Source: Halanaerobium hydrogeniformans (GTDB taxonomy: Bacteria; Bacillota; Halanaerobiia; Halanaerobiales; Halanaerobiaceae). From it: a DNA stretch of 64,000 bases. Both the position numbers and the translations under genes were made by a program. Below the pieces are notes generated by a model. It ran no database searches. It was not told the DNA's origin and saw only the letters and a program-made list of their open reading frames with translations. The stretch covers positions 1,674,001 through 1,738,000 of the forward strand of contig NC_014654.1 in the NCBI RefSeq assembly GCF_000166415.1, in the 5' to 3' direction. The first letter of the stretch is position 1. Each line of letters starts with the position of its first letter. This document shows, in pieces, positions 3,168 through 6,252 of the stretch.

Positions 3168-4997
3168 TTACTCCTCCTCAGATTTTTGAAAGTTAAATTT
3201 ATTAGCCTGATTCATTCCAGTTACAAAATAAAATGAAATTTCATTATTGCTAATCTCAGATAAGTTACTTTCTAAAATATAATCTGCAATTAGTTCTTCT
3301 AATTGTTTATAATAATTTTTATCATATTCTTCCAATTTATTGATAATTTCTGTATATAGTCTTTTAATTATTTTTTCGTTGAGTTTAAGTCCATTAAGTC
3401 TGGCTCTAAATGGATTAGAGCCATCTCTTTCACTACTCTGGATATTCAAAAGTTTCTGTGCTAAAACGCCTTCAAGAAAAACTAATTTTTTGCTGTTACT
3501 GTTAAGTACATCATTATGCTCATCCAGAAAATCAACAATATTCTTTTTATATTCACTATCAACTGTAGGCATAGATTTTTCCTCCTTTCCATTCTGATTT
3601 AATAAATCCAATTTATTTAAAAACTTTAAAATCTGAAGTGCTTTTAAATTATCAAGCCAGTATGACTGACTATTAATAAACTTTTCTCTAATATGATATA
3701 TAAACCTATTTATCAACAAATCATAGGAAACTTTTTTCTCAGAAAAAATATTATTGGTAATCTCTAAAAAAAACTTTGTGAAATCTTGTTTGCCTCTTTG
3801 GTTAACATAAAAGAAATTACTAATAGTATTAAAAGTAAAAGAAAGTTTGAAAGGTCCATCTTTCCCCTGCAAATTAACAAATAATTCATCTTTATCTATT
3901 TTATCCTTAGCAGCAAATATTTTCTGAATATAAGAAGGCAATACATCTTCCACATATAATAAAATTCTAAAAGCACTATTAATTTCTTCATAAAACATTA
4001 TATTAAAGTTAACATAATTCTTAAATTCACTCATCATCTGAAAAAGATCATTTTGAGAACCAGATAGAGATTTTTTATTTTCTTTTTCTAATGATAGTTT
4101 TTTCTTATCTTCTAAATCTCCTAGTATTTCAAACATTTCTTCAGTTTCCGTTTCTGATGCAAAAATTGTTTTAGGGATAATAAAGTAATTAATTCCGCTA
4201 AATCGTGAACTTAGATTTTCCTCTAGATATTTTTTTCCTAAATCTAAAGTCCTTGCACAATCAGAACATACCGGATAATTCTTCCAGGACTCCCCTCTAT
4301 TAAAGCCACCAGTTGTAAACCCTGGTTTATCTAAAGTGTAAAACGCAAATGTTCCTACATAACCATAAGTTTTATCTTTTTCTTTAGAACAGATATAACA
4401 TTTATTATTTTTCCCAACTGAATTTTTTTCTGCCTTATTATATGATTTTTTGAAATAAAATCCTTTTTCATAGTTATCTAAAAGTGACTCAGTAAACTTA
4501 TTAAAATCTCCTACATATTTAATCTGATCATTTTCCTGTAGAGCAATAGTTAACACAGCATTGTCATCATAGGAAATTACTTCTAATTCCTGATAAATTT
4601 TATCTTTTAATTCTTCGTCCTGAAATAAATTAAATATCTCAATTATAGTTTCTTCTTCTTGATTAAGCTCATCCTGTTTTTTTATTTTATTAACTAATTT
4701 TTTTAAAGGCCTCTGTATTCTGGAATAAGTAGACTCCAATTTAGTAATCTTAGACGTTGGAGTTAAATCTCCTCCACGTGGATTTCCATAAACATATGCA
4801 TATTTATCCAACTTTTTCTTTGTGAATTCTTCCATTTGTATTTCCTGGTATTTTAGTTCCGCATCATTGTTAAATAAAACTACTAAAACAGTATTATATT
4901 TTCCGTTAGAATTTGGGTTTTCCACAACCTGACTTAAAAAACTTGATTCCGTTTTATCTTGAACATAATCTCCCATCACTTTTAAAGCATGAATCAC
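3168..4997 (-). CDS. cas8b: Type I-B Cascade large subunit Cas8b (Csh1 family)
   Basis: 609 residues, within the normal range for Cas8b/Csh1. Two CxxC pairs (C200/C203 and C244/C247) form the zinc-ribbon typical of this subunit, separated by a GGFNRGESW segment. Cas8b recognises the PAM and recruits Cas3. It is the first gene of the operon, with ribosome site GGAGGTG before the ATG at 4997 and a consensus promoter 60-90 bases upstream. In many I-B operons cas6 precedes cas8b; here it is absent and a WYL regulator plus a repeat-like element occupy that place. Confidence 0.92.
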   Translation of the reverse strand: MIHALKVMGDYVQDKTESSFLSQVVENPNSNGKYNTVLVVLFNNDAELKYQEIQMEEFTKKKLDKYAYVYGNPRGGDLTPTSKITKLESTYSRIQRPLKKLVNKIKKQDELNQEEETIIEIFNLFQDEELKDKIYQELEVISYDDNAVLTIALQENDQIKYVGDFNKFTESLLDNYEKGFYFKKSYNKAEKNSVGKNNKCYICSKEKDKTYGYVGTFAFYTLDKPGFTTGGFNRGESWKNYPVCSDCARTLDLGKKYLEENLSSRFSGINYFIIPKTIFASETETEEMFEILGDLEDKKKLSLEKENKKSLSGSQNDLFQMMSEFKNYVNFNIMFYEEINSAFRILLYVEDVLPSYIQKIFAAKDKIDKDELFVNLQGKDGPFKLSFTFNTISNFFYVNQRGKQDFTKFFLEITNNIFSEKKVSYDLLINRFIYHIREKFINSQSYWLDNLKALQILKFLNKLDLLNQNGKEEKSMPTVDSEYKKNIVDFLDEHNDVLNSNSKKLVFLEGVLAQKLLNIQSSERDGSNPFRARLNGLKLNEKIIKRLYTEIINKLEEYDKNYYKQLEELIADYILESNLSEISNNEISFYFVTGMNQANKFNFQKSEEE

Positions 4998-5058: not shown

Positions 5059-5087
5059 ATTATACCAAATCAAATCAAAATTTTCAA
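5059..5087 (-). promoter_or_regulatory. Promoter of the cas operon
   Basis: On the minus strand, -35 TTGAAA (5087-5082), a 17-base spacer and a perfect -10 TATAAT (5064-5059). The predicted transcript start is near 5052, giving a leader of about 55 bases before cas8b. Confidence 0.8.
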
Positions 5088-5111
5088 ATAATTTATTTTT
5101 TTAGTTTTTTT

Positions 5112-5258
5112 TGATATAATTATATTGCTAGTAAAATAAAGTTTGAAATATGTTCTTAATTAGTGAAATTAATCCACTATAATAAGGATTGAAGAATTTC
5201 ACGCTTTTATCTTACCATCACCCACTGACACCGTAGTGTCGCGTACACCTGTTTTTTT
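5112..5258 (+). ncRNA. Candidate CRISPR-repeat-derived small RNA (CreR/CreA-like)
   Basis: A plus-strand unit opposite in direction to the cas operon. An extended -10 (TGATATAAT, 5112-5120) predicts a start near 5127. A repeat-like element follows at 5163-5194, ending GGATTGAAG, which resembles the 3' part of I-B repeats (AATC stem, TATAA, GGATTGAAA). A unique spacer-like stretch of about 35 bases is next. The unit ends in small hairpins (GACAC/GTGTC 5227-5240, GTGT/ACAC 5236-5248) and a T7 run (5252-5258) that meets the end of the WYL gene. No start codon with a ribosome site was seen. The alternative is a protein-binding palindrome or a dead array remnant. Confidence 0.45.
5163..5202 (+). 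repeat. CRISPR-repeat-like palindromic element
   Basis: Outer arms GTGAAATT (5163-5170) and AATTTCAC (5195-5202) enclose inner arms AATCC (5171-5175) and GGATT (5186-5190) with an AT-rich loop and a GAAG bulge. The inner hairpin with trailing ATTGAAG is the layout of I-B/III repeats of Clostridia. It occurs only once here, so it is not an array. Confidence 0.5.
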
Positions 5259-6222
5259 AATAATTTTCTAGCATTTTTTCTATTTCCTGCTGTATTTCTG
5301 CTCTGAGATCCTGGGGTGAAAGCACTTCTGCCTCAGAACCATAGCCTAAAACCCATTTTTTAATCTCCTCTCTGCTGGTGGTTTTAACATTAAAAATAAT
5401 CTCGTTTTCACTTATTTCTTCAATTTCCTGTTGATCATTCCAGCGGTATTCAGGTACAAAGCGAGCTGTTTTACCACTAAATTTTATTTTTACTTCCATT
5501 TCTTTTTTACCCTGTTCAACTCCCCAGGAATTCTGCAACTCATCTGAAAGAGAAAAATTATCAGGCAGCTCGAATTTTTCTTCAGTTAATTGCAACTTTT
5601 TAATTCTATCAATCCTGAACATTCTCTTCTCATCTCTTAAGTGACAGAAAGCATAAAGATAGGGTGCTCCATTATTAAAAAACAGGTTATAGGGATCAAG
5701 CTTTCTCTGTGTTGTCCGGTCACTGCTCATTGAATAATAATCAATTATTATTTTCTTTTCCTCATTCATTGCTTTTTTGAGCAGCTCAAATTTCTGCTGA
5801 TATTCTTCTAACTCTACAAAGGGTTCAGAAATAATCTCATAATTTTTTATATAACCACTCATACTGTTTTTTAAAAATTCTGGTAGTGAATTATATACTT
5901 TGGCCAGCCCAGATTCCAATTCTTTTTTCATGGGAAAACTTCTATTCTGATATTCTTTGGCCGCCAGCAAAACAGCCTCTGTCTCTTTTTGATCTAAATT
6001 GGGAGCCTTAAAACGAAAATTATCGAGTATTTTATATTCTTTGAGATGGTTATCATAATAAATCGGAACTCCCAGCTCTTCCATCACTCTTTTATCCCAG
6101 TGAAAAGTTCGCTCTGATATATTAAAATAATCAGCAAAATCCTTAGCTTCCCAGTGTTTGTAAGGTTCATTTAAAAGCATAATCATTTTTATAATCCTGA
6201 AGATTCTATTTGTATCGGCCAT
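5257..6222 (-). CDS. WYL-domain transcriptional regulator (HTH + WYL), CRISPR-adjacent
   Basis: 321 residues from the ATG at 6222 (a TTG one codon upstream is less well placed; ribosome site AGAGGTGG). Residues 1-60 form a winged helix-turn-helix (KHWEAKDFADYFNISERTFH). The middle and C-terminal parts match the WYL domain, a Sm-like ligand- or nucleic-acid-binding fold, with YYSMSSDRTTQRKLDPYNLF and a C-terminal extension. WYL proteins next to cas genes are known to regulate CRISPR loci in some bacteria. It is transcribed in the same direction as cas8b, ends 260 bases before it, and has its own promoter. Ligand and operator are unknown. Confidence 0.85.
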   Translation of the reverse strand: MADTNRIFRIIKMIMLLNEPYKHWEAKDFADYFNISERTFHWDKRVMEELGVPIYYDNHLKEYKILDNFRFKAPNLDQKETEAVLLAAKEYQNRSFPMKKELESGLAKVYNSLPEFLKNSMSGYIKNYEIISEPFVELEEYQQKFELLKKAMNEEKKIIIDYYSMSSDRTTQRKLDPYNLFFNNGAPYLYAFCHLRDEKRMFRIDRIKKLQLTEEKFELPDNFSLSDELQNSWGVEQGKKEMEVKIKFSGKTARFVPEYRWNDQQEIEEISENEIIFNVKTTSREEIKKWVLGYGSEAEVLSPQDLRAEIQQEIEKMLENY

Positions 6223-6252
6223 CAAACCACCTCTTTCAAAATATTTTGCAAA

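Follow-up and report, generated by a model that had tools for sequence, protein, structure and literature searches.

The closest described counterparts of the segment studied here are WYL-fold regulators and CRISPR repeats that lie outside arrays. DriD of Caulobacter crescentus, a WYL-fold regulator like the protein encoded here, and PafBC of mycobacteria are both activated by single-stranded DNA (ssDNA). DriD sites have the form CGAC-N7-GTCG, with half-sites that flank the -35 and keep a constant spacing to a -10 with a conserved G-14; in its promoters the half-site dyad straddles a poor -35, the -10 carries T-15 G-14, and the targets are DNA-repair or cell-division genes. PafBC is a heterodimer that acts on a non-palindromic site in the RecA-NDp promoters, for which the consensus tTGTCRgtg-8nt-TannnT was published. 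The WYL proteins BrxR and CapW stand beside defence operons, and these regulators of defence islands repress. CreA (CreTA) and CreR involve a degenerate repeat beside a type I-B cas8b gene; for CreA, pairing with a promoter beside a PAM is required at positions 1-5 and 7-11, and its first repeat keeps the 8-base handle while the anchors are lost. According to a review, ectopic repeats beside cas operons can yield cas-repressing guide RNAs (PMC12737573). Solitary repeat units, the Racr RNAs of phages, consist of one repeat behind a promoter; they act through binding of Cas6f and Cas7f, and their inhibition resides in the portion before the Cas6 cleavage site (PMC10651486). In type II-A systems tracr-L, a repeat-complementary RNA from the cas locus, guides Cas9 to a promoter in Cas9 self-repression.

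The window analysed here is a stretch of 64,000 nucleotides of Halanaerobium hydrogeniformans, bases 1674001-1738000 of a genome (G000) of 2,613,117 bp in a single contig. The segment of interest lies between two genes, the first of which has an ordinary promoter of its own:

3168-4997, minus strand: cas8b (TM1802/Csh1), first gene of a type I-B operon, assigned from domain and profile matches
5059-5087, minus strand: P1, ordinary cas8b promoter TTGAAA-17-TATAAT, 11 of 12 consensus positions
5257-6225, minus strand: WYL regulator (wHTH + WYL + WCX) with Pfam WYL and WCX matches; nearest solved relatives PafBC by profile and DriD/PafBC by fold

The CRISPR array lies at G000:C1:1666593-1670117 on the minus strand, about 9 kb left of the repeat-like element of the segment. 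It holds 49 copies of a 37-base repeat, all identical (GCTCCAATGACTAATCCATTAAAATAAGGATTGAAAC), and 48 spacers of 34-37 bases. Since the interval between array and window contains cas6b, cas4, cas2 (called by inspection), cas1 and the remainder of cas3, the type I-B operon is complete and cas6 is not missing. The Cas6b gene was found at the opposite operon end, adjoining the array, and not where an earlier note on this DNA had the repeat element standing in its place. A PAM was sought by comparing the array spacers with phages, plasmids, genomes of the genus and one viral-contig scan, which gave only weak matches or matches to arrays, and no PAM emerged. Spacer 41 pairs at 10/10 seed positions with the cas8b promoter region (window 5057-5022, minus strand); as one match among 48 spacers in A+T-rich DNA, with about 0.1 expected, we grade it close to chance.

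The plus strand of the segment carries three features:

5112-5120, plus strand: putative extended -10 TGATATAAT; 5111-5122 identical at 12/12 positions in three species
5133-5150, no strand assigned: conserved block between this -10 and the repeat, 18/18 identical in three species, containing a weak seed match (T1)
5159-5195, plus strand: degenerate CRISPR repeat (psiR), from array comparison, genome pattern scan, Rfam, and orthologs in two genomes

The earlier note had called a repeat-like element at 5163-5194 by resemblance, and comparison with the array left of the window bore this out. Bases 5170-5194, which form the core (in context TTAATCCACTATAATAAGGATTGAAG), agree with the array repeat at 22 of 25 positions, while the best other core match in the window reached 19 bases and block-shuffled windows gave 18-19. 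A degenerate pattern of the core with up to two mismatches matched only the array and the psiR site in a scan of the 2.6 Mb genome, where its reversed control gave no match. Rfam CRISPR-DR7 aligned to psiR over its full length with a score under the gathering threshold; no other Rfam match at the locus was relevant. The element points away from cas8b, as had been described, and the plus-strand extended -10 is likewise present and identical in two orthologs. By its sequence psiR is a relic of a repeat of the host's type I-B array. Orthologs occupy the equivalent position in G002 (H. kushneri) and G006 (H. saccharolyticum MSL 17.2), and G010 retains the first bases (GATAAAACTGTGAAAT) up to the point where its contig stops. 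The contig end itself (G010:C479) reads CTGTCTCTTATACACATCT, presumably a leftover Nextera/Tn5 adapter. A similar cas8b in G009 and G020 lacks both wyl and a repeat upstream. In G006 psiR is intact, yet cas8b and cas7 were not found in the genome; foreign-looking, IS-like sequence (by inspection) starts inside the P1 region at the end of contig C12 and interrupts the cas8b promoter.

The following features are read on the opposite strand or have no strand assigned:

5209-5256, minus strand: P3, WYL-type promoter toward cas8b, kept in 11 genomes at invariant spacing and fitting tTGTCRgtg-8nt-TannnT
5230-5223, minus strand: -26 element of P3, TGTCAGTG, followed by an 8-nt gap and the -10 TAAGAT (5214-5209), which is preceded by TGG
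5227-5240, no strand assigned: dyad GACACCGTAGTGTC, predicted WYL dimer site around the -35, previously taken for a hairpin; GACA-N6-TGTC in 10/11 genomes
5252-5258, no strand assigned: A-run directly 3' of the wyl stop, previously taken for a T7 end; also in genomes without the repeat
5202, minus strand: predicted P3 transcription start (G); a purine at that offset in 11/11 genomes
5163-5202, minus strand: stem-loop GTGAAATT..AATCC / GGATT..AATTTCAC, +1 to +40 of the predicted P3 transcript; stem 25/26 identical in three species

The stretch described earlier as a unique 35-base spacer turned out to be shared. The motif at 5209-5256 follows the wyl stop in 11 genomes, where it reads AAAAAAC.TG.TGTt.GcGACAta..ggTGTC..TGGG.GATGGTAAGAT, and in 7 of the 11 the repeat is missing beside it. 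The motif was not found after WYL paralogs, and its core occurs once in the G000 genome, so that it goes with wyl and not with the repeat. A site of the type GACA-N6-TGTC occurs only here within the window, and the single exception in the alignment (G013) has TGGC instead of TGTC. The proposed hairpin/T7 terminator was not recovered either: no intrinsic terminator was recognised, and the T-run lies about 10 nt from the hairpin and is equally present without the repeat. Read toward cas8b, P3 is GTGTCAGTG-GGTGATGG-TAAGAT and matches the PafBC consensus except for a weak first t; shuffling the intergenic region 20,000 times produced a PafBC-type core in 3 cases. We consider it very probable that the motif is a minus-strand promoter, and this is the firm part of our reading. 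Further TGTCRSTG-N8-TAWGAT matches in relatives (G006, G011, G013) lie inside reading frames and were rejected. Another candidate promoter, P2 (5119-5147, minus strand, 10/12), was dropped because its -10 is not kept in G006.

The architecture of the WYL protein is that of activators of the PafBC/DriD kind, and in the fold comparison DriD (top) and PafBC ranked ahead of BrxR and CapW. Model quality was modest and global TM-scores were low, so this ranking supports but does not prove the kinship. From these comparisons the protein is probably an activator of the DriD/PafBC type, triggered by ssDNA. The layout of P3 resembles that of DriD promoters, with the TG at -15/-14 invariant across the aligned genomes. 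Its dyad consensus is CGACA-N6-TGTCG (gap 8, with GTCA as second half-site in the window), whereas the DriD half-sites are one base closer (gap 7), and the presumed target of P3 is a cas operon. The PafBC parallel rests on the promoter consensus, the WYL and WCX domains and the profile ranking; in contrast to the heterodimer and its non-palindromic site, the locus has a single WYL gene and a dyad. As with BrxR and CapW, the WYL protein stands beside a defence operon, but the P3 site has an activator-promoter layout and lies downstream of the regulator gene.

The cassette of wyl and P3 keeps varied company. In G007 and G003 it is followed by a Cas8b of another kind; in G003 (H. polyolivorans, G003:C33:70060-70835) wyl is broken by stop codons and the P3 motif is retained. 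In G008 and G001 it is followed by Cas3 in an operon with Cas8c/Csd1, G005 starts likewise, and in G012 and G013 a Cas3 of a further type follows. The cassette thus precedes at least four kinds of cas operon (two Cas8b/I-B, one containing Cas8c/Csd1 and one further Cas3-first), as if it were exchanged between operons as a unit. In G001, G005, G008 and G013 the predicted +1 coincides with a Shine-Dalgarno-like GGAGGTG; in the first three the cas3 start follows directly, so the cas mRNA would be almost leaderless there.

In the alignment all 11 genomes have G or A seven bases past the -10, at the predicted +1, and 10 of them have a pyrimidine just before it. In G000, G002 and G006, and in the remaining part of G010, the predicted +1 base opens the arm GTGAAAT. 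The earlier note had overlooked an 8-bp inverted repeat here (5163-5170 / 5195-5202). Because the +1 purine is the first base of the GTGAAATT/AATTTCAC hairpin, the cas8b mRNA should begin with an antisense-repeat stem-loop, GUGAAAUUCUUCAAUCC-loop-GGAUUAAUUUCAC, with a predicted 13-pair stem of -9.2 kcal/mol. The z-scores in the three species are -2.9 (G000), -3.6 and -2.4. Besides the nearly invariant stem, 8 of 10 loop positions are identical in three species, whereas the discriminator retains 2 of 6 and the dyad spacer none of its 6. Compensatory changes are absent and the repeat-bearing genomes share ancestry, and the stem pairing is to that extent a prediction; a role of the hairpin as mRNA leader element is probable.

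Taken together, in our somewhat favoured interpretation the segment supplies the cas8b operon with a promoter and 5' leader and does not encode a guide RNA. The sequence itself shows the repeat, the promoter motif with its conservation, the consensus match and the hairpin. The WYL protein, switched on by ssDNA, would bind the dyad around the -35 of P3, and RNA polymerase would start near G5202 toward cas8b. PsiR, a remnant at the junction of wyl and cas that lies antisense at +1, would form the 5'-terminal stem-loop of the cas8b mRNA, which most simply may shield the mRNA 5' end, and P1 would supply basal cas8b expression. Several findings speak against this leader interpretation. P1 alone could drive cas8b, the conserved plus-strand -10 and the block at 5133-5150 are unaccounted for, and G006 keeps psiR although cas8b and cas7 are gone. 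The single WYL gene, the half-site spacing relative to DriD and the modest fold model weigh on the same side. The plus-strand -10, the block and the intact G006 element leave some lower probability for a plus-strand RNA, a Cas6 decoy or an anti-repeat that pairs with pre-crRNA.

A plus-strand RNA was the subject of the earlier note's proposal of a CreA/CreR-type guide. Such an RNA, starting at about 5127, would be cut by Cas6 in the repeat, load Cascade and repress a cas promoter to which it is partly complementary. There are precedents for this among ectopic repeats beside cas operons (PMC12737573), Cas6b and the full Cascade are encoded, and the conserved -10 makes a plus-strand RNA conceivable. 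In addition, three species share pairing of T1 (5149-5139) with spacer positions 1-6 and with several further along. Pairing at T1 fails, however, at position 7 in all three species, and a second match, T2, fails at position 8 in every species. Within the cas promoter region the seed finds no better match than 8/10, a value reached by 38% of shuffled spacers and by 11 of the 48 array spacers. Close species differ at spacer positions 8-11 but agree in the supposed targets. Searching the rest of the genome for full-seed matches gave 3 places, one that looks intergenic and two coding, against 5 for the reversed control. The end of the handle is degenerate (AUUGAAGA, UA or UU against AUUGAAAC; the last two bases are GA, TA and TT in the three species and AC in the arrays) and the stem is kept, the reverse of the first CreA repeat. 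No clear second repeat was found: the only candidate on the 3' side, CCACTGAC, resembles a repeat start and is accounted for by P3. Over its 3' two thirds the spacer overlaps P3, a conserved minus-strand promoter, and is constrained by it. In lacking a seed-complementary target and a second clear repeat, and in having a degenerate handle, a kept stem and a promoter as spacer, the element differs from CreA and CreR. With the seed failing and the match at chance level, we consider a guide improbable, although one with unusual rules or a remote target may exist.

Equally improbable in our estimation is that the leader acts as an anti-repeat sensor. The P3 leader would pair with repeats of unprocessed pre-crRNA, opening the 5' hairpin and exposing the mRNA (e.g. 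to RNase III), so that cas expression would track the ratio of free repeats to Cas6. A duplex of about 29 bp between the leader and the array repeat is indeed possible, with -29 to -35 kcal/mol where the hairpin has -9 kcal/mol. The loop, which is dispensable for the stem, is still repeat-like at 8 to 10 of 10 positions, and both of its variable positions also vary among the arrays of the genus. This pairing is, however, expected automatically from repeat ancestry. The G000 leader has one mismatch with its own repeat, co-variation with the own array is absent, and the literature searched gave no precedent. Like tracr-L, such an RNA would be complementary to the repeat, arise from the cas locus and possibly tune cas expression; the anti-repeat would lie within the cas mRNA instead of guiding Cas9 to a promoter.

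Slightly less probable still is that the repeat is a functionless scar of a former array at a recombination junction, with an incidental hairpin. The occurrence of wyl-P3 before at least four cas operon kinds indicates that wyl-cas junctions were rebuilt repeatedly, and the cas8b relatives without wyl are also without the repeat. Against this, three species agree at 36 of the 40 positions of the hairpin next to the poorly conserved discriminator and dyad spacer, and one hairpin arm is now the exact complement of the other. A host-encoded, Racr-like solitary-repeat RNA acting as Cas6 decoy is very unlikely: a single repeat does stand behind a conserved promoter, and a degenerate handle would not matter since the part of a Racr that inhibits precedes the Cas6 cleavage site, but psiR is chromosomal and beside cas genes, has mostly lost the first 12 repeat bases that form the Cas6-binding part in haloarchaeal type I-B systems, no terminator was found, and a stem extended to 13 bp would mask the site of cleavage.

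The locus advises caution with ectopic repeats near cas genes, for which the opposite strand should be examined before they are called guide RNAs. If the leader interpretation is true, the hairpin at +1 would put a CRISPR repeat to a use other than guiding. There is a slim chance that cas expression is set jointly, by ssDNA from the invader or made by Cas3 through the WYL activator, and by free pre-crRNA through the anti-repeat in the mRNA. If the reading of P3 as a WYL-type promoter is true, CRISPR-Cas in Halanaerobium would be wired to a sensor of the ssDNA/DNA-damage type, which would provide a testable answer to the question of how cells time CRISPR expression to infection.
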